A stretch of 21,940 nucleotides of DNA. Origin: a virus. The notes below the pieces were generated by a model that was not told the origin of the DNA, ran no database searches, and saw only the letters and a program-made list of their open reading frames with translations. Location: the IMG/VR virus record IMGVR_UViG_3300020433_001289, positions 1 through 21,940 of that record; one strand, given 5' to 3'. A program made the position numbers and the translations under genes. Below are positions 4,304-19,724 of the stretch, piece by piece. Position 1 is the stretch's first letter. Each line of letters begins with the position of its first letter.

Positions 4304-4374
4304 ATTCTCACTCCTTGTTAAAAAATTAATATCTCTCTTATTATAGTCTCATATTATCGAAATAAAGTCAACAG
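4304..4374 (-). repeat. Promoter-leader repeat, copy 3
   Basis: Third copy. On the minus strand: CTGTTGAC (4374-4367), TATAAT (4345-4340) 20 nt after TTGACT, then the leader core GAGATATTAATTTT and AAGGAGTGA before the ATG at 4303. The TGA inside CTGTTGAC is the stop codon of the agmatinase gene, so the promoter overlaps the end of the polyamine cassette. Confidence 0.75.
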
Positions 4375-5159
4375 CTATTTGAAATTTTTCTTAATATTTC
4401 ATAACAAAGTTTAGCTACTACAAAATCATATGCTTCTATACCTTTTATTGGTGCAAACTCAACTATATCAACTGCAACTATTTCATTATATTTAATTAAG
4501 CTATCTAATAAATGCATAGTTTCATTCCACATATAACCACCAGGCTCTGGTGTTCCTGTAGCTGGCATTAAAGATATATCAAATGCATCTACATCAAATG
4601 TTAAATATAACTTTTTGTTTTCTGGTATAGTATGTCTGAATATTCTGTGTGAATTTTTCTTTATATATTGTTCTTCCTCTTTACTTGTGTTTCTTATTCC
4701 AAATCTATACAAGTTTGTTTTATTATTCATTTCTAAACATCTTCTCATAGCACATGCATGACTATCTTTGGTTCCATCATATTCATCTCTAAGATCACTA
4801 TGTGCATCAAACTGAAGTATGTCAACACCTTCATTAGCCCAAGGTTCAAATAGTGTTGGAGTTAAACTATGATCACCACCTAATGTCATAATAAATTTAC
4901 CTTCATCTTTACCTGCTTTAACCATTCTTGATAACTCAGGTAATCCTGTAGCATATGCTTGACCTATAAGACTAGTAAATGTATGTATTTTTAAGTTGTC
5001 AGGATATGGATGAAGTTCAACTTGTTGACTTGCTTTTAGAATAGCTCTTGGACCATTTCTTGTTCCTCTTCCATAAGATACTCCAGCTTCTTTTGGATAT
5101 GGTATTATAAGAGTATTAGACTCATTATATTTGTATTTTTTAACTCCTAAAAAGTTCAT
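4368..5159 (-). CDS. speB: Agmatinase / arginase-family ureohydrolase
   Basis: This 263-residue ureohydrolase most likely hydrolyses agmatine to putrescine and urea. The binuclear manganese site is complete: H97 in GGDHS, D118, H120 and D122 in DAHSD, and D189/D191 in FDVDAFD, followed by MPATGTPEPGG, which is conserved in the family. DSHACAMRR (132-140) supplies the substrate-side histidine block. The length is a little shorter than bacterial agmatinases (about 300), with a short N terminus. The ATG at 5159 lies behind GAGGAGG and 20 nt inside the end of the deoxyhypusine-synthase-like gene. It is the third gene of a polyamine cassette, which favours agmatinase over arginase or formimidoylglutamase. 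Its stop codon lies within promoter-leader copy 3. Confidence 0.9.
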   Translation of the reverse strand: MNFLGVKKYKYNESNTLIIPYPKEAGVSYGRGTRNGPRAILKASQQVELHPYPDNLKIHTFTSLIGQAYATGLPELSRMVKAGKDEGKFIMTLGGDHSLTPTLFEPWANEGVDILQFDAHSDLRDEYDGTKDSHACAMRRCLEMNNKTNLYRFGIRNTSKEEEQYIKKNSHRIFRHTIPENKKLYLTFDVDAFDISLMPATGTPEPGGYMWNETMHLLDSLIKYNEIVAVDIVEFAPIKGIEAYDFVVAKLCYEILRKISNSC

Positions 5160-6147
5160 GTAGTTTCCTCCTCTTCCTATTTTTTAAATCAGAATTATGA
5201 TATGCATAATTTGCTATAATAGGTAGAGTGCTTGTAGCTTCTCCATAAACCATTTGAGTATTACTGTTATCAACCTTTCCCCATGAAGTTGCTTCATCTA
5301 AAGTAGAACTTGAACAAGCTCCATCTCTTACATCTGCAACTGTAAGTTGTATTGCGTATTGATGCATTGGTACTCTATGACCAATTGCTTCTGCAGCTAC
5401 AACTACATCTTGAGCAAAGTTTTTAGGTACACCACCACCTACCATAAACAAACCTGTATTTTGAGATTCAACTTTCAAATAAGTCAACTCTCGTAAATCT
5501 TTAATGCTATCTATAACAACACAACCATCTGGATTATCTGTTTGATGCATAAGTAAACCAATTCCAGCTGCACTATCATTCAATGCTGGACAAAATATTG
5601 GTACATCTTCTTTATAGCATTCTTGAACTAAACTATTACTTGTTCTTGTATGCCAACCTAATAAATTTAAAAACTCTCTTGAACTTTGTATCTTCCATGA
5701 ACAATTTTTATCTGCAAAGTCTTTAATAAAATTATCAACTTGTTTTAAGTCATCTTCAGAAATATAAGTATCGTATATTCTATCAATATATTCTTCTCTT
5801 AAAATATTATCATCTGCTTTACTAGAACCTATATAATGTTTGTTACCTAAACCTTCAAATAAATCCATATCTATAATAGATGCACCTGTAGCTACTATAA
5901 CATCTACCATATTATACTTAACTAAGTCTCTATATAATTGTAAACATCCAGCTGCTTGTGTTGAACCTGCAATAGTTAATATTATAGATAAATTATCATC
6001 TTCTAACATTTCCTTGTATAACTGACAACTGTTATATATTTCTCTTGAAGTAAATGAGGTTGACTCCATTTGATCAACCATATCTGTAACATTAAACTTA
6101 GAAATGTCTATATGTTTAACTATCTTTTTTAATGAATGGTCTATCAA
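5140..6147 (-). CDS. Deoxyhypusine-synthase-family protein (probable homospermidine-type synthase)
   Basis: This 335-residue member of the deoxyhypusine synthase family is NAD-dependent and transfers an aminobutyl group from a polyamine to an acceptor amine. Family blocks are present: STSFTSREIYNSCQLYKEML, LTIAGSTQAAG, VDVIVATGASI, GWHTRTSNSLVQECYKEDVPIFCPALNDSAAG, GGGVPKN (237-243), and the active-site lysine K291 in SWGKVDN, matching SWGK of the eukaryotic enzyme. Bacteria and phages have no eIF5A, so the acceptor is more likely a free amine such as putrescine, giving homospermidine or a related polyamine. It starts at TTG (6147) behind AAGGA with 8 nt spacing, because no ATG occurs before residue 23, and overlaps the SpeD-like gene by 32 nt. 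Family assignment is firm; the exact reaction is inference. Confidence 0.88.
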   Translation of the reverse strand: MIDHSLKKIVKHIDISKFNVTDMVDQMESTSFTSREIYNSCQLYKEMLEDDNLSIILTIAGSTQAAGCLQLYRDLVKYNMVDVIVATGASIIDMDLFEGLGNKHYIGSSKADDNILREEYIDRIYDTYISEDDLKQVDNFIKDFADKNCSWKIQSSREFLNLLGWHTRTSNSLVQECYKEDVPIFCPALNDSAAGIGLLMHQTDNPDGCVVIDSIKDLRELTYLKVESQNTGLFMVGGGVPKNFAQDVVVAAEAIGHRVPMHQYAIQLTVADVRDGACSSSTLDEATSWGKVDNSNTQMVYGEATSTLPIIANYAYHNSDLKNRKRRKLHELFRS

Positions 6148-6481
6148 TTAACTGTTCCTTTTTACTATAGAAGTTATGTTTCTTTAACACTTCTAAAACT
6201 GTATCTACATTATACTTCTTACAACTATAAATGTCAAGCTGAAAATGACCATTATCCCAAGTATGTAATATTATATGACTTGTTGTTATAGCTGTCATCA
6301 TAGTATAACCTTCGTTTCCTTCATCATCACATCTTGATGTATATGGACCACTTAATATTTTCATATCAAGCTCTTTTATGAGATCATCATTCATATCATT
6401 AAGTCTTGGCCAAGGCCAACACATTTTATTGATCTCGTCAAAATGTCCTGTAATAATTAGATGTTTATGTAGAAGATCCAT
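6116..6481 (-). CDS. speD: SpeD-family pyruvoyl-dependent decarboxylase
   Basis: The 121-residue product belongs to the prokaryotic S-adenosylmethionine decarboxylase (SpeD) family, which self-cleaves to make a pyruvoyl cofactor. The core ITTSHIILHTWDNGHFQLDIYSC carries the three catalytic residues: S68 (pyruvoyl precursor), H73 and C87; the spacing from S to H matches SpeD of Thermotoga. The residue before the cleaved serine is T67 instead of the usual Glu. Some SpeD homologues are known to have become arginine or ornithine decarboxylases, and the agmatinase two genes downstream with no spermidine synthase in view makes arginine decarboxylation attractive here. I choose the ATG at 6481 (opening MDLLHKHLIITGH, as in SpeD) with AAGGA upstream; an upstream ATG at 6550 would overlap the glycosyltransferase by 86 nt. 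Confidence 0.85.
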   Translation of the reverse strand: MDLLHKHLIITGHFDEINKMCWPWPRLNDMNDDLIKELDMKILSGPYTSRCDDEGNEGYTMMTAITTSHIILHTWDNGHFQLDIYSCKKYNVDTVLEVLKKHNFYSKKEQLIDRPFIKKDS

Positions 6482-7490
6482 CCTTTGATAATCCTTGTAA
6501 TAATAATTCCCATTCCTTTGCTCTAAAGTTCCAACTATAGAAGTTATCAAAATAGTTCTTTTGAACTTCCAACTGGTTTTGCCAGTTTTGTTGTTCTTTC
6601 ATTATATTGATAGTATTATTTAAAATACTTGCAAACCTATTAACATGTTTTTGACCATCTTCTGTATATTGATACATGCTTGCAAAGTTAGCACACGTTT
6701 CTGGTAATGCACCTAAATTATTTGTAACAGTTAAACATTTTGCACTCATAGCTTCTATTGCTGCTATACAAGATGTTTCAACCCATATACTTGGAAATGC
6801 AAATATATGAGCTCTACCTAGTGCTTCCATAACTTTATCATGTTGTTGAAAACCATGATAAGTTATCTGTGGATGATTATTACAAGTTTCAAAAACTTGC
6901 TTATATTGTTCGTCTCTATGTTTCCATCCATAGATTTCAAAACTACTGAATACATCTAAGTGAATATTTTTATGTTCTTTACATAAGTATTCAAATACTG
7001 GTATAAGTAATTCTAAACCTCTATGTGGAGTTGTATGATAAATTAATCTGATTTCGTCTTTAACATTTGGTTTATCTATAAGGTTTGCAGGTATTGGATC
7101 TATAGCATTTTTCATAACTATACCTTTATCAAAAGGAACACCTAAACCTAAATGAAAAGTATGCATTTGATAGTTACTAACAAAAACTAATTTTTCAAAT
7201 CTTGATAAAGAACTATCATCTTTAAGATGTTGATTCTCTGGATCATTCCATAAGTCATGTAACCATAAGATTCTTTTCTTATCTTCTAAGTCTCTTACTC
7301 TACTACAAATTAATTGAAAATTATCTAACAGTTTTGGATCCAACTCTTTTTTGAGTCTATCAAACATTCTCTCAGTACCACCTTGACTCTTAGACCAGGT
7401 ACCACTGTTAGTCATTTTATTATCACCTAAAGAAAACTCTTCTTCTTTCTGTGCTTCTTCTAATCCAGTTATGTTAAGCTGTGTTGCCAT
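6465..7490 (-). CDS. GT4-family glycosyltransferase (group 1)
   Basis: This is a 341-residue GT-B fold glycosyltransferase. The C-terminal nucleotide-sugar domain shows RLIYHTTPHRGLELLIPVF (149-167), YHGFQQHDKVMEALGRAHIFAFPSIW (211-236) and the E-x7-E motif, E238 to E246 in ETSCIAAIEA. The N-terminal acceptor domain is short; WLHDLWND and LVFVSNYQMHTF are family-typical. The first 30 residues look disordered. The donor and acceptor are unknown; phage DNA bases, host surface glycans or virion proteins are all possible. It starts behind AAGGAGATAGTAA and overlaps the end of regA by 17 nt and the SpeD-like gene by 17 nt, so it is part of the same polycistron. Confidence 0.88.
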   Translation of the reverse strand: MATQLNITGLEEAQKEEEFSLGDNKMTNSGTWSKSQGGTERMFDRLKKELDPKLLDNFQLICSRVRDLEDKKRILWLHDLWNDPENQHLKDDSSLSRFEKLVFVSNYQMHTFHLGLGVPFDKGIVMKNAIDPIPANLIDKPNVKDEIRLIYHTTPHRGLELLIPVFEYLCKEHKNIHLDVFSSFEIYGWKHRDEQYKQVFETCNNHPQITYHGFQQHDKVMEALGRAHIFAFPSIWVETSCIAAIEAMSAKCLTVTNNLGALPETCANFASMYQYTEDGQKHVNRFASILNNTINIMKEQQNWQNQLEVQKNYFDNFYSWNFRAKEWELLLQGLSKDGSST

Positions 7491-11408: not shown

Positions 11409-11676
11409 CGTGTCCTCCATAATGTAATGCTAATATAGCATAATGTATAATCTTTAGTAAGTCTTTTTTATTCTTACCATCTTTCTTTCCATATCTCATA
11501 GCATACTTAACGATAGTACCTAAGCACATCTCTTCTGCTATACCCATAGATTCCCAAACATCTAATGTTTGAGTCTCTTTCTTACCAACATAATGTTGAC
11601 CATATGTACTCTTTATATAATCAAAACTATCGTCTAGTAAATTATCTTCATTGTATTTAAACTTATGCGACTTCAC
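11380..11676 (-). CDS. DUF3310-family protein
   Basis: The 98-residue protein has the DUF3310 pattern: YVGKKETQTLDVWESMGI, then LGTIVKYAMRYGKKDGKNKKDLLKIIHYAILALHY. Members are common in phages and sometimes fused to nucleotide-metabolism proteins, but their function is unknown; an association with nucleotide kinases has been suggested. It begins at GTG 11676 directly after a stop codon in its own frame, overlapping the dpdA-like gene end by 14 nt. No good Shine-Dalgarno is at the usual distance (AAGGAG is 15 nt away), so translational coupling is likely. Confidence 0.8.
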   Translation of the reverse strand: MKSHKFKYNEDNLLDDSFDYIKSTYGQHYVGKKETQTLDVWESMGIAEEMCLGTIVKYAMRYGKKDGKNKKDLLKIIHYAILALHYGGHGETYTEQDK

Positions 11677-12580
11677 TTATTTGATCTTCCACTCCTTGTT
11701 TCGCTTCTAAGCCCCAGAGATATGCATATACTAACTTGTCAATATAATCCATATTCTCTTTAGCTAGATTAATAAAAAAATCATTATCTTCTTTATCTTG
11801 CTCTGGATTGTGATTAAAGTCAACAGGTACATGAAATTTTCCATGAAGTAATCCACCTGGTGTATCATCATATCCATAACCATTTAATCCATGCCAGATA
11901 GCACTACTACTATCCCATGTATCAACAAATCTTTTGAAAGGAGCCATAAACTGTATCTCATTAGGACCATCAACCATTCCTAAGAAATGTAACTTCTGAT
12001 TATTCTTTTTTATACCTCCTAGCAAACCATACTCTGCTAGTTTGTACATCATGTGTAATCTTGAATTGAATCTATGTAATGAAGGTTCGTGTCCAAACGG
12101 TTCAATGCCATATGCATTAGGCACAGCAAGAATACTATAGCCAATATAATCAACCAACCCTGGATTTTCAGTAGCCCATCTAAAACATTCAATATAATCT
12201 TCTTTATCATTCTTCTTTCCTTGAGGTACAAAGAAAGTCTTTATACCTGCTTGTTTAAATATAGGTGCTTGTTCTTTAGCTGCTTCAATAGTTTTCTCAG
12301 AAGACTCACCTGGATAATCTGTCATAACAGCATAGTCAGCATCTATTCGTTTCGCATAATGAACTATCTCTTCACCAGTAAGATAGCCTTTACCTTCTTG
12401 TGTAAATTCAAAGGCACTGTTATCCATAATGATAATGGATCCATTCTTTTTTTCTTCTTTATAAAAATTAGTGTATTGCTGATTATCTACAAGATGTGCA
12501 AGAGTCAAATGGACTTCTCTACCTTTAGTAAGGTGTAGATAATTTATTGGTGCTATGTGACAGAAATGTGTCTTCGACAT
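11663..12580 (-). CDS. dpdA: TGT/DpdA-like enzyme (7-deazaguanine insertion into DNA)
   Basis: The 305-residue TIM-barrel-type protein resembles tRNA-guanine transglycosylases and their phage DNA paralogue DpdA, which swap guanine in DNA for a 7-deazaguanine base. Visible blocks are IIIMDNSAFEF (D53, the TGT general-base position), DADYAVMTDYPGESSEKTIE, VDYIGYSILAVPNAYG, LHFLGMVDGPNEI (198 onward) and FVDTWDSSSAIWHG (D220, D223, candidate nucleophile region). It lacks the C-terminal zinc-binding motif of tRNA enzymes. FolE, QueD and QueE are encoded upstream, which strongly supports the DpdA reading. I place the start at ATG 12580: a TTGACA-17-TATTAT promoter lies so close that upstream ATGs at 12616 and 12589 would be at or before the transcription start. 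Confidence 0.75.
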   Translation of the reverse strand: MSKTHFCHIAPINYLHLTKGREVHLTLAHLVDNQQYTNFYKEEKKNGSIIIMDNSAFEFTQEGKGYLTGEEIVHYAKRIDADYAVMTDYPGESSEKTIEAAKEQAPIFKQAGIKTFFVPQGKKNDKEDYIECFRWATENPGLVDYIGYSILAVPNAYGIEPFGHEPSLHRFNSRLHMMYKLAEYGLLGGIKKNNQKLHFLGMVDGPNEIQFMAPFKRFVDTWDSSSAIWHGLNGYGYDDTPGGLLHGKFHVPVDFNHNPEQDKEDNDFFINLAKENMDYIDKLVYAYLWGLEAKQGVEDQISEVA

Positions 12581-12587
12581 ATAATTC

Positions 12588-12619
12588 ATAATATACCTTT
12601 CAAATGTTAATGTCAACAG
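12588..12619 (-). promoter_or_regulatory. Consensus sigma70 promoter for dpdA-like gene
   Basis: On the minus strand, TTGACA (12616-12611) and TATTAT (12593-12588) are exactly 17 nt apart, a near-perfect sigma70 promoter. The -10 ends 7 nt before ATG 12580, so the transcript should start on the ATG. The CTGTTGAC octamer shared with the three promoter-leader repeats spans 12619-12612, overlapping the -35. Confidence 0.7.
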
Positions 12620-13170: not shown

Positions 13171-13239
13171 CTAAATTATTTTATTAGACAACATCATCAT
13201 AGAAAGCCAAAACAATGTGTGAAGTAATAGTCTCCACAT
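13171..13239 (-). CDS. Possible 22-aa hydrophobic micropeptide
   Basis: A 22-codon reading frame (MWRLLLHTLFWLSMMMLSNK then II) fills the gap between two genes. Its ATG shares a base with the stop of the upstream gene (TAATG) and AAGGGA lies 7 nt upstream. Its stop codon is 1 nt before the GGAG of the next gene. The hydrophobic core is long enough for a membrane segment. It is very short, so chance is a real possibility; the exact fit with the neighbours' signals is the only support. Confidence 0.3.
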   Translation of the reverse strand: MWRLLLHTLFWLSMMMLSNKII

Positions 13240-13670
13240 TAATATTCCCTTGGATATTCGGTATGACTACCATTTTCTCCATCTTCACTTACATCAATGG
13301 CTAACCATCTTTGAGGGTATTTATCTTTTATTTGTCTTGCAAGTTCATCAGATATCATTTCACAACTCTTATAGTCTAACTGTATTATATTATCAGCATA
13401 CAAACTTTCTAGCCATCTCTTAAATATGAAGAATTCAATATCTCTATCACCATGAAATACTTCTATCTGTACCTTAAACTTAAATATATGTCTGTGAGGA
13501 TATCGTAAAAAATCTACTTCATCAGGTGCATCAGGATACTTATGGATCCCTTCCTTCTGAAACGTAACCCATATACTTTTCTTTACCTGACGTTCTATTT
13601 GTTCTCGTGATTGCTCACGAATAGTATCTCTAATAAACTCATCATAACTTTGGTGACTTTCATCTAACAT
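13239..13670 (-). CDS. Unknown protein, probable diverged QueD/PTPS-like T-fold
   Basis: The 143-residue protein is not obviously named, but its layout fits the T-fold of 6-pyruvoyltetrahydropterin synthase/QueD. A first histidine (H43, in TFQKEGIH) is followed by an HxH pair (H59, H61, in YPHRHIFKFKVQIEV), the usual three-His zinc site. Then come DRDIEFFIFKRWLESLY (compare VDFG.LK), SCEMISDELARQIKDKYP (compare PTSENLA..I) and IDVSEDGENG near the end, where QueD has its substrate-binding Glu. The catalytic Cys before HGH is replaced, so the classic QueD reaction is doubtful. The N-terminal 35 residues are a charged helix. It starts behind GAGGAGGACTA. It lies between the folE-queD-queE block and the dpdA-like gene. 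The fold is inference. Confidence 0.55.
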   Translation of the reverse strand: MLDESHQSYDEFIRDTIREQSREQIERQVKKSIWVTFQKEGIHKYPDAPDEVDFLRYPHRHIFKFKVQIEVFHGDRDIEFFIFKRWLESLYADNIIQLDYKSCEMISDELARQIKDKYPQRWLAIDVSEDGENGSHTEYPREY

Positions 13671-14014: not shown

Positions 14015-14695
14015 TTAACCACTTCTAGCTAAGTTTAAGAATTCTTTTCTAGTCTCAGAATTTTGAGTAGCAAATACACCACCAACAGATAATGTAACTG
14101 TACTACTATTCTGATCTTGTATACCTCTACTTTTAACACAAAAGTGTTTAGCATCAATATACACTGCTACATCATTAGTCTGTGTTACATACTGAATGGT
14201 AGCTCTAATCTGTTCTGTTAATCTTTCTTGTACTTGAGGTCTCTTACTAAAGAACTGAACTATTCTATTCAGTTTAGATAAACCCAATAGTTTTCTATCT
14301 GGTAAGTAAGCTACTGTAGCTAAACCATCAATAACAATATTATGGTGCTCACAGGTACTTTGTACATTAATATTTTTCTCTAATAAAAAAGATCCATTAT
14401 TCTTCATCTTATTCTCTATAGCTGTACACTTAGGAAAGTTAGCATAGTTTAAACCAGAAAAGATCTCATTTACATACATCTTAGCAACACGACTAGGTGT
14501 ATCACATAATGAATCATCTGTTCTATCTAAACCTAATATATCCATAATCTCAGCATGATGTTTTGTAATCTTTTCTATCTTAACATCACTTGACTCCTTA
14601 ACAGCTTCTGTTGTAGGTGTCTCCAATCCTTCTTTAATTAAGAACTGATGTACTTCTTTTCCTAAACTAGGATCTGATTTATAACTTGGGTGCAT
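14015..14695 (-). CDS. folE: GTP cyclohydrolase I (FolE)
   Basis: This 226-residue enzyme converts GTP to 7,8-dihydroneopterin triphosphate, the first step toward both folate and 7-deazaguanines. Zinc ligands are intact: C115 and H118 in TCEHH, and C186 in HFCVKSRG; H117 and H184 complete the active-site histidines. LLGLSKLNRIV and RPQVQERLTEQI are conserved blocks. The length is close to E. coli FolE (222). The first 35 residues are a variable extension. The ATG at 14695 has AAAGGAGGAG upstream and overlaps the queD stop by 17 nt. Downstream is the non-coding gap with two inverted repeats. Confidence 0.96.
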   Translation of the reverse strand: MHPSYKSDPSLGKEVHQFLIKEGLETPTTEAVKESSDVKIEKITKHHAEIMDILGLDRTDDSLCDTPSRVAKMYVNEIFSGLNYANFPKCTAIENKMKNNGSFLLEKNINVQSTCEHHNIVIDGLATVAYLPDRKLLGLSKLNRIVQFFSKRPQVQERLTEQIRATIQYVTQTNDVAVYIDAKHFCVKSRGIQDQNSSTVTLSVGGVFATQNSETRKEFLNLARSG

Positions 14696-15149
14696 ATAAC
14701 TCCTCCTTTTCTACGATAGCACTATTGGCACCATGTTCAGCACACACAACTCGTGTAACCCAACATCTATTGTTTGTTTGTTGTCTTATAAGTTTATCTG
14801 CATAGTTAAATGCATGCTCTGCAAACTTTTCTGCACCAACACCATCAAAGATTCTAACTTCTGCAAGGTCTAACTTTTCTAATTCTCTAAACTTATCCAA
14901 GAAAGGATCATTCATATCTAAACACACTTTATGATCAAACATATCTTCTAACCAACCCTTCAAAGGTCTAAGACTTCCAAAATCTACAGCCCAGTTCCTA
15001 TCATCTAGTTTCTCACAGGCAAAAGTAAAAGTAAAAGCTAAACTATAACCATGTAAAAAACGACAATGTGAATGACTTGCATTAGGTTGTCTAAACACTG
15101 CGCTTAGTCCAATGTGATGTCCATAGTGTTTCGTACTTGTGTATATCAT
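14679..15149 (-). CDS. queD: 6-carboxy-5,6,7,8-tetrahydropterin synthase (QueD)
   Basis: This 156-residue T-fold enzyme converts dihydroneopterin triphosphate to 6-carboxytetrahydropterin. The catalytic Cys (C29) and following histidine lie in HSHCRFLHGYSLAFTF; H26 or H28 and H33 are likely zinc ligands. The usual HGH motif is HGY here. RNWAVDFGSLRPLKGWLEDMFDH and the final CAEHGANSA supply the substrate-binding Asp/His and Glu positions. The pattern is that of phage QueD proteins. The ATG at 15149 has GGGAGA upstream and overlaps the phosphoribosyltransferase stop by 4 nt; a TTG at 15161 lies before the ribosome-binding site. It sits between folE and queE, as expected for the pathway. Confidence 0.9.
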   Translation of the reverse strand: MIYTSTKHYGHHIGLSAVFRQPNASHSHCRFLHGYSLAFTFTFACEKLDDRNWAVDFGSLRPLKGWLEDMFDHKVCLDMNDPFLDKFRELEKLDLAEVRIFDGVGAEKFAEHAFNYADKLIRQQTNNRCWVTRVVCAEHGANSAIVEKEELYAPKL

Positions 15150-15577
15150 TTTTTCTCCCAAGGAAAGTTTATCCAGTCATCATCATAGAACATTTCGCCA
15201 TATAAGTCAACATTAAAATGACTACTTTTTTTATTAATTAAAGCTGCTGTTCTATGAGACAACCTTCTGTTTTTAAAAATATCTGTTACAACCTTAAATG
15301 TAGTACCACTATCGTTGATATCATCTACAATAAGATACCTTGCATCATCTATAGGTTTAAATTTTGTATGATGTGTTGCTTTTTTATCTCTGAATGAGAC
15401 ACCTAATGTTTCCATAGGAAGATCTAATAAATGAGATAACATTACAGCAGGTATTAATCCACCTCTTGTAATTCCAACTATATGAGTAGGATCAAAAGAT
15501 CTTGCTCTATTATATACCTCATATACAAGATCATCAATCTTGTTCCATGAATAATTTATCTTAGACTCCGACAACAT
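15146..15577 (-). CDS. Purine-type phosphoribosyltransferase
   Basis: This 143-residue type I phosphoribosyltransferase carries the PRPP-binding motif YLIVDDINDSGTTF (about 84-97) and the N-terminal IVGITRGGLIPAVMLSHLL loop. Its size and pattern are closest to xanthine/guanine/hypoxanthine phosphoribosyltransferases (Gpt-like). A function in salvaging guanine or a related base to its nucleotide is likely. It is embedded between queE and queD, so it may supply GMP, and thus GTP, for FolE or handle guanine released by the DpdA-like base exchange. The ATG at 15577 overlaps queE by 17 nt; the ribosome-binding site (GGGGGA) is unusually close. Confidence 0.88.
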   Translation of the reverse strand: MLSESKINYSWNKIDDLVYEVYNRARSFDPTHIVGITRGGLIPAVMLSHLLDLPMETLGVSFRDKKATHHTKFKPIDDARYLIVDDINDSGTTFKVVTDIFKNRRLSHRTAALINKKSSHFNVDLYGEMFYDDDWINFPWEKK

Positions 15578-16454
15578 TCCCCCATAAGTAACAGTGAACT
15601 CTTGCCGATACTTTGTATCCTCTTTTTAAAGCCTGGGTAGCGATCTTACCCGCGACCTCTTCTTGCCCTTCCTTAGTAGCAGATACAGGCATAATCCAAA
15701 TAGGAAAGTTAATCCCATGAGCCCTAAAAGATCTAATAACATCTTCAACTTCCTCCCAACATTCTTTGGTTCCATTGACAACAAATTTAAGTTGCCCATT
15801 CTTACTTAGGTCATAATAGTTTTTGACATGCTCAGGTTTTATAGCTTTTTCTTTCTTTTCACCAGATACAGTCCTTAACTTAGGACTTACACTCCAAAAA
15901 AGCTCACCATTAACATCATTATAGTTATCTATCATAGTTACAAACCCAGCATCAAAATTAAGATCTTGTGTACCATTAGTTTCAATAGTTATACTAGGAG
16001 GTACATTTCTCTCAGCCATAAACTGGTTCATTACATCTATTATAGCTTCTTGATTATGAGCTAACATAGGTTCACCACCAGTAAAACACATATGATTATC
16101 TTTAAGTAAACCATGGTGATTAGGTCCATCTTTCATCATACATTCTACTAATCGATCGTAAATAACTTTAGCAGTTCCCTTATGTTGTAATCCTTTGAAC
16201 TTTCTTGACCAACTATAACTACTATCACAACCAAACTCAAACACAGGCAAGTCTTCTAATCTATTGAACTTTGTAGGATCAATGTCTTTAAATGGTAACT
16301 TATAAGTTGACTCATCTGTTGGATCCTTCTGTCCAAAACCATGACATTGAAGATTGCAAGCCCATAATCTCAACCACAAAGTAGGATATCCTGTATAAAA
16401 TCCTTCGCCTTGTATACTATGAAATATCTCACTATAGAGATGTTCTTTTTGCAT
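15561..16454 (-). CDS. queE: 7-carboxy-7-deazaguanine synthase (QueE, radical SAM)
   Basis: This 297-residue radical SAM enzyme converts 6-carboxytetrahydropterin to 7-carboxy-7-deazaguanine. The N terminus SEIFHSIQGEGFYTGYPTLWLRLWACNLQC is typical. The 4Fe-4S cysteines are C33, C37 and C76 (GCDSSYSW): a 38-residue insert separates the second and third Cys, where canonical radical SAM enzymes have two residues. The SAM-binding GGEP motif is in CFTGGEPML, and ETNGTQ follows. The long insert (HGFGQKDPTDES...) recurs in phage QueE proteins as I recall. The ATG at 16454 follows GAGGAGAAAGA and overlaps the deformylase gene by 23 nt. Confidence 0.92.
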   Translation of the reverse strand: MQKEHLYSEIFHSIQGEGFYTGYPTLWLRLWACNLQCHGFGQKDPTDESTYKLPFKDIDPTKFNRLEDLPVFEFGCDSSYSWSRKFKGLQHKGTAKVIYDRLVECMMKDGPNHHGLLKDNHMCFTGGEPMLAHNQEAIIDVMNQFMAERNVPPSITIETNGTQDLNFDAGFVTMIDNYNDVNGELFWSVSPKLRTVSGEKKEKAIKPEHVKNYYDLSKNGQLKFVVNGTKECWEEVEDVIRSFRAHGINFPIWIMPVSATKEGQEEVAGKIATQALKRGYKVSARVHCYLWGNVVGV

Positions 16455-16962
16455 TCTTTCTCCTCAACCTATCTAACTTCAACTTCTGTCTCTTTGCTTG
16501 ATCTAAATGAACTCTATGAGCTCTTGATGTAAAGTTTACACCTTGTAAATGATCATACTCATGTTGAAATATCCTCGCAGTTAATCCTGTTAATTTAAAT
16601 GTATCAATATTCTTTTGCCAATCAGTTATCCTTGTTCTTATCTCAACAGGTCTCTTTATCTTAATAAACAAACCAGGAAAACTTAAACAACCTTCTTCAC
16701 CATACTCTAAACCAGATGAAAAGTCAACGATCTTTGGATTGAAAGCTCCTACTATACTTTCTGGTTCACTAGGATTACCAAATACAAACATACTATATTG
16801 CAGTCCAACTTGATTACAAGATAATCCTAATCCTTTGTGTTTAATCATAGTAGCTGCCATTCTATCATATAACTCTTTTGGATCCATTGGTGGATTCTCA
16901 AAGTCAAAAGGAATAGTCTTTTGTTTTAAATATGTGTCTACTAACTTAAATGGTTCTGCCAT
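16432..16962 (-). CDS. def: Peptide deformylase
   Basis: This 176-residue metallopeptidase removes the N-formyl group from nascent proteins. All three family motifs are present: GLGLSCNQVG (44-53, usual GxGLAAxQ), EGCLSFPG with metal ligand C92, and QHEYDHLQG with ligands H134 and H138 and catalytic E135. Phage-encoded deformylases are frequent in marine T4-like phages, where they are thought to act on proteins with high turnover such as photosystem D1 in cyanophages, or generally on phage proteins. It overlaps gmd by 22 nt. Upstream of ATG 16962 only a weak GAAAG is seen, so it probably depends on coupling. Confidence 0.95.
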   Translation of the reverse strand: MAEPFKLVDTYLKQKTIPFDFENPPMDPKELYDRMAATMIKHKGLGLSCNQVGLQYSMFVFGNPSEPESIVGAFNPKIVDFSSGLEYGEEGCLSFPGLFIKIKRPVEIRTRITDWQKNIDTFKLTGLTARIFQHEYDHLQGVNFTSRAHRVHLDQAKRQKLKLDRLRRKNAKRTSL

Positions 16963-17909
16963 CTTTCTATCATTTCATCTAACATTGTTTCAAAAGTATA
17001 CTCTGGTTTCCATTTCAGAATCTTTCTTGTTTCTGAACTATCACCACATAAGTATTTTAATTCTTCGGGTCTCATAAACTTAGGGTTTTGAGTAACATAT
17101 TTATCAGGATCCAAGTCTAGCTTTTTGAATACATAAGTAACTAAATCTCTTACACTATGACTTTTTCCTGTAGCTATAACCCAGTTTCTTGCTTCTTTAT
17201 AATCCATCATTTTAATTATAGCTTTCATATAATCTTTACTATGACCCCAATCTCTTTTACTATCTAAGTTTCCAAGAACAAGTTTATCAGCTTTACCTAA
17301 TGATATCTCCACAGCTCTTTTAACAACTTTATTAGTTACAAAGTTGGATCCTCTTCTTGGACTTTCATGGTTAAATAATATACCATTTACAACAAACATC
17401 TTATATGCATTTCTGTAATGGTTTGCAATATTATATCCTAATACCTTTGCACAACCATAAGGACTAACAGGATTCATTGGTGTTGTTAATCTTTGATGGT
17501 TGTCCTTATCAACACTGTTACCAAACATTTCACTACTACTTGCTTGATAGAACTTTGCTTGTGGTGCTAAGTTTCTTGTAGCTTCTAACATATTCAATAC
17601 ACCAAGTGCATTTGTTTGTATTGTAAATGATGGTACATCAAAACTAATTCTAACATGACTCATAGCTGCTAAGTTAAATATATGAGTTGGTCTAACCTCT
17701 TTCATTATTCTATACAAAGAATGTTCATCTAACAAATCACCATAATGTGTTTTTATTTTACTATTGATATGTTCGTATCTTGTACTTTGGTTTTCTGGGG
17801 TACTTTGTCTTCTAATAATACCATGTACTTGATAATCTAAATCTAATAATAGTTCTGCCAGATAACTTCCATCCTGTCCACCTAATCCTGTAATTAATGC
17901 TCTATTCAT
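16941..17909 (-). CDS. gmd: GDP-mannose 4,6-dehydratase
   Basis: This 322-residue short-chain dehydrogenase converts GDP-mannose to GDP-4-keto-6-deoxymannose. The Rossmann NADP motif is GLGGQDG (8-14), followed by HGIIRRQSTPENQSTRYEHI, typical of Gmd. The catalytic set is S124-S126 region (ASSSEMFG) with Y151 and K155 (YGCAK). NHESPRRGSNFVTNKV and LGNLDSKRDWGHSKDYM are Gmd signatures. The ATG at 17909 has AAGGATATTCA upstream; in-frame starts further upstream have no ribosome-binding site and run into the aminotransferase gene. Its product feeds rhamnose, fucose or perosamine branches; the DegT enzyme and a fucosyltransferase-like protein are adjacent. Confidence 0.94.
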   Translation of the reverse strand: MNRALITGLGGQDGSYLAELLLDLDYQVHGIIRRQSTPENQSTRYEHINSKIKTHYGDLLDEHSLYRIMKEVRPTHIFNLAAMSHVRISFDVPSFTIQTNALGVLNMLEATRNLAPQAKFYQASSSEMFGNSVDKDNHQRLTTPMNPVSPYGCAKVLGYNIANHYRNAYKMFVVNGILFNHESPRRGSNFVTNKVVKRAVEISLGKADKLVLGNLDSKRDWGHSKDYMKAIIKMMDYKEARNWVIATGKSHSVRDLVTYVFKKLDLDPDKYVTQNPKFMRPEELKYLCGDSSETRKILKWKPEYTFETMLDEMIERWQNHLS

Positions 17910-18603
17910 TGAATATCCTTTTTGTTGATAAGTCACTATACGTTCTATTGTTTCCAGAGTCAAGGTTTTTTTTCGGTACTTGATCCATTAACAATATACC
18001 TCTTGCTGCATCTTCTGGTGTCATGTAGTAATGATAACCACAATATTCAAAATCATCTTCCATATAACCTATAGTTAAATCTCTACCATCATATGTCATT
18101 TTTCTAAACCATTCTGATGCACCTAATTCATCTGTTAATATCATACCACCTCTTCCAATTGGTATTCTTTTCTTTAACTGAAAACTTACAACATGAAAAC
18201 CACTCTTATACATTCCTTTAGTCCACCTTACAGCACCATCCCAAATATCAAATGGTTTTAGTTGATACATTCCTGACCATTGTATATTCTCAAACTTTGG
18301 TTTAAAACCAGCGTGTTTAATTTGCATGGGAACACTACAATAAGTATATGATGGAATTTTTATATACTCATTAGTCATTTTCATAACATCTTTATAATAT
18401 TTCAATGCTAAAAATAATCCATGAGAGCAACAATCAATAGCAACTGCATATTTTGATCCTGCAAACTCTGCTACTTTATTTTCAAACATAGTAACAACTT
18501 CTCTTGGATCACTAAACTTATATCCAGCTTTCTTCAATTGTTTTAATTCTGGTCGTTGAAACTCAGGTGGTAACTGACCTAATGGCCAACTTTTATAACT
18601 CAT
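17902..18603 (-). CDS. Short DegT/DnrJ/EryC1-family aminotransferase-like protein
   Basis: The 233-residue protein resembles the N-terminal PLP-binding domain of DegT/DnrJ/EryC1/StrS sugar aminotransferases: FENKVAEFAGSKYAVAIDCCSHGLFLAL, IPSYTYCSVPMQI, DIWDGAVRWTKGM (cofactor Asp region) and HVVSFQLKKRIPIGRGGMI with the Schiff-base Lys at 144 or 145. Full enzymes are about 370 residues; the C-terminal domain is missing here. I have seen such short versions repeatedly in marine T4-like phages, and the frame ends cleanly and overlaps gmd by 8 nt, so this is probably a stable short form and not a pseudogene. With gmd upstream of the reaction, GDP-perosamine-type sugar formation is a possibility. 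It starts behind AAGGTATTTTTAG. Confidence 0.82.
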   Translation of the reverse strand: MSYKSWPLGQLPPEFQRPELKQLKKAGYKFSDPREVVTMFENKVAEFAGSKYAVAIDCCSHGLFLALKYYKDVMKMTNEYIKIPSYTYCSVPMQIKHAGFKPKFENIQWSGMYQLKPFDIWDGAVRWTKGMYKSGFHVVSFQLKKRIPIGRGGMILTDELGASEWFRKMTYDGRDLTIGYMEDDFEYCGYHYYMTPEDAARGILLMDQVPKKNLDSGNNRTYSDLSTKRIFNE

Positions 18604-19012
18604 CTAAAAATACCTTATCTAATTTTTGTCCTTTATATGGTCCTGTTTTATATTCATAAACTTTAGTATTATCTTCCATACTTAAATAAGTATGTCCTCC
18701 TTGTAGTGTTATAGAACTATCTCCTGGATGTAAAAATTCTTCTTGTAATGACTTACCATCTGTATCAAAGAAAAATACTTTAACCTTTCCTTGTATAACT
18801 ACCCAACTTTCTTGAGCTATACATTCTTTTTCTCCAGGTTTCCAAATATGTTTATGAGGTCTAAATGTTTTTCCTTTGGGCATATTTAAAGTAGATAACT
18901 GTAAAAAATTATCTGCATCAATTATATCTGTTCTTTCTTCAACTATCTCTTCATTTCTTAAAACCATATGACATAATACTTTTGGATCCACTTTGGAATA
19001 TATCCTAATCAT
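18593..19012 (-). CDS. Cupin-domain protein
   Basis: The 139-residue protein has a single cupin barrel: a first motif FRPHKHIWKPGEKECIAQESWVVIQG (metal-type H53, H55 and E68, then E-x6-G) and a second motif PGDSSITLQGGHTYL with H107. Such small cupins in sugar loci are often nucleotide-sugar isomerases or epimerases, so a sugar-modifying role is likely given the neighbours. The exact reaction cannot be read. I chose ATG 19012, 7 nt after GGAG; ATG 19018, two codons earlier, is only 1 nt from GGAG. It overlaps both neighbours, consistent with one operon. Confidence 0.8.
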   Translation of the reverse strand: MIRIYSKVDPKVLCHMVLRNEEIVEERTDIIDADNFLQLSTLNMPKGKTFRPHKHIWKPGEKECIAQESWVVIQGKVKVFFFDTDGKSLQEEFLHPGDSSITLQGGHTYLSMEDNTKVYEYKTGPYKGQKLDKVFLDEL

Positions 19013-19724
19013 TTTCATACTCCATCCATTCTATATTATCAAATAGTTCTGTAAATAAGTCAAGGCATTTCCAATCATTATCAGTTATCATTCCTTCTTC
19101 ACAACTTTTTCTATCTAACATATGATAACTTAAATTAGGATTAAGTAATGCTGCAGATAAAATATAGCTACTAAAACCACCTAAAACAACCGAGCTATTA
19201 TAAACCATAAACCATTCTTCAACACTATCATTATTATATGGGCTAGTTATAGTATCCAATGATGCTCCTTCACCAGCACTTAATATTCTACTTACAGCTT
19301 CAAAATCATCTCCAATCACCATACTTCTTGGAAAATGACAAACCATATTTTTATAGGTTTGAACAGGAACTAAAGGTCTATCTATTTGCCTTACATGAAT
19401 AATTGGACGGCCTGATGGTTCTTGATTAGTATTTTTAACAGGCATCTTTTTTCTAATCTTATCAATAAATTTATGTACTGTTTTAATTCTTTCTTGGTTA
19501 AATATAGGAAACTTATTTGTTCCATCTGTTGTATCAATCTTTATTTCAGTATTGATTACCTTACTTATAAAGTCTATGTTGATTTCTCTTAAACCTTTTG
19601 GATAATTAAAAAAGTTCAATACTATCTTTTCAATATCATTATCCTTATCAAACGCATCTCCATATGCTGCCATTAAGTTAAGTAGTTGTGTTCCTAAGCC
19701 ACCTCTTATATTATAAGTTAACAT
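19005..19724 (-). CDS. Fucosyltransferase-like glycosyltransferase (GT11-type pattern)
   Basis: The 239-residue protein begins with NIRGGLGTQLLNLMAAYGDAF, the GGLGNQLF-type nucleotide-binding loop of alpha-1,2-fucosyltransferases (GT11), and has IIHVRQID (108-115), the HxRxGD-like donor motif, followed later by FMVYNSSVVLGGFSSYILSAALLNP, which matches the GT11 'S.FSwW.A.L' block. Donor could be GDP-fucose or another GDP-deoxysugar made through Gmd. It starts behind AGGATAGC and overlaps gp46 by 7 nt. The family call is moderate; an O-fucosyltransferase-related fold is an alternative. Confidence 0.7.
   Translation of the reverse strand: MLTYNIRGGLGTQLLNLMAAYGDAFDKDNDIEKIVLNFFNYPKGLREINIDFISKVINTEIKIDTTDGTNKFPIFNQERIKTVHKFIDKIRKKMPVKNTNQEPSGRPIIHVRQIDRPLVPVQTYKNMVCHFPRSMVIGDDFEAVSRILSAGEGASLDTITSPYNNDSVEEWFMVYNSSVVLGGFSSYILSAALLNPNLSYHMLDRKSCEEGMITDNDWKCLDLFTELFDNIEWMEYEND

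Follow-up and report, generated by a model that had tools for sequence, protein, structure and literature searches.

A T-fold relative of QueD encoded beside DpdA-type genes in viruses without full-length QueC

The window, a virus record of 21,940 bases, encodes a 143-residue protein on its minus strand (13239..13670) that is a distant, remodelled cousin of QueD. It is almost beyond doubt that the family to which this protein belongs is a T-fold related to QueD, and we are hardly less sure that the family serves the deazaguanine DNA-modification pathway. The T-fold, the conservation of a zinc triad, the loss of those residues on which QueD catalysis depends, the linkage to DpdA and the absence of full-length QueC were all computed here. 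We propose, at just short of an even chance, that the protein is a zinc T-fold enzyme of a QueC-independent branch that converts 7-carboxy-7-deazaguanine (CDG) into the base used by DpdA, most likely by decarboxylation. A "hypothetical protein" of hundreds of viruses thus becomes a testable enzyme candidate.

The reading frame is intact with an ATG start, and its core domain spans approximately residues 30–139; the plus-strand reading of the same interval is interrupted by many stops. The product matches PHROG 17812 ("unknown function") with an E value of 3.7e-33. Searches of Pfam and NCBIfam gave no assignment, including no match to PF01242 or TIGR03367, and phmmer with the single sequence against the PDB returned noise only. 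Homologues were found in 27 records of isolated phages, where the ORF is labelled just hypothetical, among IMG/VR records (at least 596 relatives) and on 21 contigs of bacterial or archaeal genomes, several of them short or virus-like; a search of plasmids at E 1e-5 found the gene on none. The domain also occurs in longer proteins, encoded at L086 4251-5402 and L090 4431-5312 and represented in BFVD by A0A8S5V119 and A0A6J5LEZ6 (one annotated as AAA, the other 459 aa long). The homologue of Vibrio phage Bakedbeans is extended at its N terminus by 260 aa, a segment that weakly matches a winged helix, and in Chryseobacterium phage MA9V-3 the domain is fused to one resembling endonuclease VII.

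Fold and conserved residues

A structure of the family protein was predicted with AlphaFold2 from a 27-member alignment whose members came only from the window and the fetched loci. The model (mean pLDDT 93.2) has strands at residues 32–43, 59–70, 95–99, 123–129 and 133–139 and helices at residues 50–56, 76–89 and 103–117, which is the β-β-α-α-β-β order of a T-fold with a short insert helix and strand. When the model was compared with the PDB using Foldseek, ranks 1–23 were all QueD or PTPS structures, with target-normalised TM scores mostly of 0.67–0.78. The top matches include E. coli QueD (4ntk, 4ntm), PH0634 (2dj6), SCO6650 and P. aeruginosa PTPS; other T-folds (QueF-like, DHNA and GTP cyclohydrolase I) appear at lower ranks. 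The T-fold claimed in the preliminary description is therefore borne out by the predicted structure, whose nearest solved relatives are QueD and PTPS.

The best match of the family profile among PDB sequences was the PTPS homologue PH0634 (E 0.05), colinear across the HxH, TxE and C-terminal Glu motifs. Alignment by hhalign to a QueD reference of nine sequences had a probability of 89.7 (P 1.8e-6) over 111 colinear columns, while the negative controls (FolE, GT, large DpdA, PRTase and small DpdA) all stayed at background, with probabilities of at most 0.5%. Structure prediction and profile-profile comparison with QueD, both suggested at the outset, thus support the relationship. Family size, conservation, profile and fold confirm a resemblance beyond chance, and chance resemblance is ruled out by the fold, profile and conservation tests.

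The hhalign alignment pairs His43 with His16 of QueD, His59 and His61 with His31 and His33, Glu79-Phe80 with Asp-Phe, Glu104 with the Glu of PTSE and Glu129 with Glu110. The motifs listed in the preliminary description (His43, His59-x-His61, I78-EFFIFKRWL, S102-CEMISDELARQI and S128-EDGENG) are all at the residues given there. Conservation was assessed over 140 family members, with invariance counted over the rows that have a letter at a position. By this measure H43, L55, H59, H61, R76, E79, E104 and E129 never change; position 103 is Cys in 138 of the 140 and position 73 is His in 132. The His triad, Arg76, Glu79, Glu104 and Glu129 are still unchanged in members with as little as 27% identity. 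On the minus strand, the predicted zinc ligands are His43 (codon 13542..13544; 139/139) and the two His of His59-Arg-His61 (13488..13496; both 139/139), the latter corresponding to His31-Gly-His33 of QueD. Cys103-Glu104 (13359..13364, minus; E104 140/140, C103 138/140) starts the second helix at the position of the QueD PT-S-E motif, and Glu129 (13284..13286, minus; 139/139) is the counterpart of the substrate-anchoring Glu110. Judged from the alignment with the QueD triad, His43, His59 and His61 should cluster in space and would be expected to bind zinc.

The position of the QueD catalytic Cys (the equivalent of Cys27) is Leu55 in 139/139 members, in agreement with the Cys loss noted previously. 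To this we add the loss of the Asp-His pair (D70-H71 in E. coli), which is absent from a region that is shortened and not conserved. The family protein is not QueD because both the Cys and the Asp-His pair are absent; its earlier designation as a "second, diverged QueD" holds for the fold but not for the chemistry, as the QueD catalytic triad is missing. The conservation pattern therefore indicates that a metal site and a purine/pterin anchor were kept, that QueD chemistry was lost and that an invariant Arg was gained.

Gene neighbourhood, QueC and the proposed reaction

The gene order in the window is queE, a phosphoribosyltransferase gene, queD, folE, a 71-aa ORF, the family gene, two small ORFs and dpdA. 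The placement of the gene between a folE-queD-queE block and a dpdA-like gene was thus correct, as judged by ORFs, domain searches and a structure match. On the minus strand, the block comprises folE, for GTP cyclohydrolase I (14015..14695; PF01227, E 2.3e-55), queD (14679..15161; PF01242, E 3.2e-13) and queE, for the radical SAM CDG synthase (15561..16454; Radical_SAM, E 0.015), and the last of these matches QueE-type genes of 169 phages by tblastn at identities of up to 50%. Motif comparison places the QueD in a phage-type C-x3-HGY class; it keeps the Cys, lacks the first zinc His and has HGY, so that two of its three zinc His are apparently missing. The same variant is seen in the QueDs of many other phages. 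The phosphoribosyltransferase-domain protein between queD and queE (15146..15577, minus; PF00156, E 2.3e-16) has counterparts near the family gene in 51/139 loci and could salvage a deazaguanine base or the released guanine.

The dpdA-like gene (11663..12616, minus) encodes a small DpdA-type protein that matches TIGR00432 (arcTGT) with an E value of 0.003. A profile search against PDB sequences returned antibody noise only, and identity was settled by structure comparison: the AlphaFold2 model (pLDDT 86) has archaeosine TGT and bacterial TGTs as its top Foldseek matches, and the DNA preQ0 insertase DpdA (7ui4) is also matched (E 6e-5). The modelled structure confirms a TGT fold for this neighbour, which carries an IMDNSAFE motif where DSGGFQ is expected. 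Elsewhere in the window are overlapping polyamine-type genes (4368-6550, minus; PF00491, arginase/agmatinase; PF01916, deoxyhypusine synthase; PF02675, S-adenosylmethionine decarboxylase), nucleotide-sugar genes (16941-19018; GDP-mannose 4,6-dehydratase, a DegT-type aminotransferase and a protein that may be cupin-like) and a separate, different glycosyltransferase gene (6465-7490).

Context was counted within 6 kb of the family gene in 139 loci. A DpdA-type transglycosylase gene was present in 122/139, folE in 72, queE in 51 and queD in 26; these counts are lower bounds because many of the loci are fragments. QueC was found within this distance in none of the 139, and the 571 annotated module genes share the strand of the family gene without exception.

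The absence of QueC was pursued in 12 phage isolates of diverse kinds that carry the gene, each searched over its whole genome. Searches found FolE in 11, QueD (PF01242) in 10 and QueE in 10, with a local match in Rhizobium phage RHph_I1_18 (locus L093) supplying an eleventh QueE. Full-length QueC (PF06508) was found in none of the 12, which gave two partial PP-loop hits. The controls were 14 QueE-bearing phages in which a profile confirmed the absence of the family gene; QueE-bearing isolates were chosen because FolE-based sampling of IMG/VR yielded just three control loci. All 14 had a match to the QueC model above the cut-off, spanning most of the model in 12. The difference in full-length QueC (0/12 versus 12/14) has a Fisher p of 9.5e-6, which ignores phylogeny and is only indicative, since some of the control phages are related to each other. 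Likewise, none of 41 IMG/VR viral records carrying the family gene had full-length QueC. Bacterial and archaeal genomes with the gene had QueC elsewhere in 6/6 cases, as expected if it serves queuosine or archaeosine formation in the tRNA of these cells. Partial PP-loop matches to the QueC model occur in phages both with and without the gene (W07, W11, W16, W17, G001, G007).

The FolE-QueD-QueE pathway stops at CDG (PMC13329287). With full-length QueC missing beyond this point, we infer that the family protein handles CDG. A step after CDG fits the pattern because gene-bearing viruses lack full-length QueC and usually have a QueD of their own. Gene context thus narrows the preliminary suggestion, that the protein might process a pterin or bind a deazaguanine intermediate, to a post-CDG step, for which a candidate reaction can be drawn.

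That the protein is an enzyme acting on CDG or on a CDG-derived base is reasonably probable; that it is specifically a CDG decarboxylase is a more tentative assignment, which we place somewhat below an even chance. Such an enzyme would derive from QueD/PTPS stock and depend on zinc, with QueD chemistry lost: the missing Cys, Asp and His would abolish QueD side-chain cleavage. FolE, QueD and QueE would make CDG, which the family protein would take in place of the QueC step from CDG to preQ0. Glu129 may anchor the guanine-like edge of CDG while zinc, held by His43, His59 and His61, and the invariant Arg76 hold the 7-carboxylate. Removal of the carboxylate would yield 7-deazaguanine, the adjacent DpdA would swap this product for guanine in phage DNA, and the modified DNA would be shielded from host nucleases.

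Partner DpdA types, glycosyltransferases and alternative readings

The family gene is partnered by at least four DpdA types, of which the large type contains a DSGGFQ motif. A GT4-type glycosyltransferase adjoins the gene in 104/139 loci, and its presence follows the DpdA type: 89/92 loci with large DpdA and 4/4 with the ACP17-type, compared with 0/22 with the small type found in the window and 0/4 with the Roos-type. These neighbours were assigned by Pfam to GT4 (Glycos_transf_1, Glyco_trans_1_4) and TGT, mostly below curated cut-offs. The GT4 neighbour has an E-x-RYTxQ-like start (L007, L083, L084, L092, L097, L127 and approximately 100 other loci). Two module architectures thus emerge, one of small DpdA without a GT and the other of large or ACP17-type DpdA with one. 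From its architecture one can predict the guanine replacement that a phage bears and, in turn, the host nucleases that it should resist.

Two observations fit decarboxylation least well, the GT4 association and the Roos-type phages. Decarboxylation alone leaves the GT4 branch unexplained because bare 7-deazaguanine has no hydroxyl to glycosylate. The family protein might instead turn CDG into a hydroxyl-bearing or otherwise glycosylatable 7-deazaguanine, to which the adjacent GT4 would add a sugar before or after insertion by DpdA. The frequency of the GT beside the gene, its GT4 identity by Pfam and its strict coupling to DpdA type favour this alternative, as does the absence of a GT of this kind from the que loci of the 14 controls, covered over just 2 kb on either side. 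Against it, no GT of this kind lies close to the gene in the branch to which the window belongs, the GT could have another substrate, and we know of no T-fold enzyme that hydroxylates or hydroxymethylates. On balance we consider it unlikely. Marginally less likely still is the fuller version, in which the gene marks a widespread branch that does without QueC: CDG would receive a new 7-substituent from the T-fold enzyme, and a dedicated GT4 would attach a sugar to that group in most phages as well as in Magnetospirillum, so that the DNA carries a glycosylated 7-deazaguanine; to our knowledge, no such base in DNA has been described. If the GT does act on a deazaguanine, it would define a new class of DNA hypermodification.

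Roos-type loci (L091, L094-L096) combine the family gene with a TGT-like gene and a YhhQ-type transporter (Vut_1). A search of Faecalibacterium phage Roos found no FolE, QueD, QueE or QueC, so CDG may not be the substrate in Roos; the arrangement suggests that Roos-type phages salvage an imported base. Two further settings were also observed. Magnetospirillum contigs of up to 1.4 Mb (L127, L128, L132, L133) have the order GT, family gene, large DpdA, QueD, which suggests a cellular or prophage-borne DNA modification island. In Methanoperedens-type archaea (L135, L136), queD-queE-folE is followed by a gene similar to linalool dehydratase/isomerase (PF18566), the family gene and a methyltransferase gene; no DpdA was found near the family gene in these two loci, and the cluster is possibly another use of the CDG branch.

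A different view is that the T-fold has no catalytic role: the protein would bind a deazaguanine (or free guanine) and either pass it to DpdA or help DpdA in some other way. DpdA is the tightest neighbour of the family gene (where the partner is a small DpdA, the two genes mostly overlap or are separated by no more than 0.6 kb), the QueD catalytic Cys, Asp and His are gone, and the MA9V-3 fusion and the Bakedbeans extension also favour a binding role. However, the residues that are invariant to 27% identity (the zinc triad, Arg76, Glu79, Glu104 and Glu129) are typical of a catalytic site. Furthermore, the partner DpdA type switches repeatedly on the family tree (11 changes for the large type and nine for the small), in which the deep forks are poorly resolved. 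The family gene is therefore the constant element and the DpdA/GT set the variable one. Such switching is more easily reconciled with a step in making the base than with a subunit tailored to a single DpdA, and it counts against a DpdA-type-specific subunit. We regard the non-catalytic reading as improbable, to much the same degree as a glycosylatable product.

Least probable, and very unlikely in our judgment, is that the protein is a second QueD. It would then be either another CPH4 synthase or the part that brings zinc to a split, heteromeric enzyme and so completes the phage QueD. In favour, T-fold active sites sit at subunit interfaces, as in the PTPS family, and the window pair shows complementary residue loss (QueD keeps the Cys, the family protein the zinc His). 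Against it, several phages that lack the gene have an HGY-type QueD (phi38:2, PhiXhv-16, Ep032, pf16 and BUCT608), and the gene is accompanied by a canonical HGH QueD in Bakedbeans, PA5oct, Magnetospirillum and Methanoperedens. Roos carries the gene without QueD, and the gene correlates with the absence of QueC and not with QueD type. Comparison of QueD across phages thus does not support a split or heteromeric enzyme.

Comparison with known systems

QueD/PTPS (PF01242; 4ntk, 2dj6) shares with the family the T-fold, the order and spacing of the zinc His triad, the Asp/Glu-Phe block at the first helix, the Glu at the start of the second helix (E104), the C-terminal Glu anchor (E129) and location in the same operons. 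The family differs in having an invariant Leu for the catalytic Cys and no Asp-His pair, in the new residues Arg76 (invariant) and Cys103 (near-invariant), in matching neither PF01242 nor the NCBIfam QueD models and in occurring beside the phage's own QueD.

Cui et al., writing in NAR in 2023, are said to have reported dDG and dCDG in phages and to have predicted a CDG decarboxylase, DpdL. DpdL would occupy the pathway place expected here, acting on CDG in phages without QueC to give dDG. The family gene has this context (with FolE/QueD/QueE/DpdA and without QueC), the Roos-type phages being the exception. The citing papers that were examined give no description of DpdL, and the family may or may not be DpdL.

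QueC (PF06508), which converts CDG to ADG and preQ0, acts at the same point of the pathway, after CDG. It is ATP-dependent and has an unrelated Rossmann/PP-loop fold, and full-length QueC and the family gene never occurred together in the phages examined. QueF and the QueF-like proteins (nitrile reductase and amidinotransferase) resemble the family as T-folds that act on 7-deazaguanines, and they appear among the weaker Foldseek matches (5jyx, 5k0p). However, a phage without QueC makes no preQ0 on which a QueF-type reaction could act, and the family has its closest fold in QueD, with the zinc-type His triad conserved.
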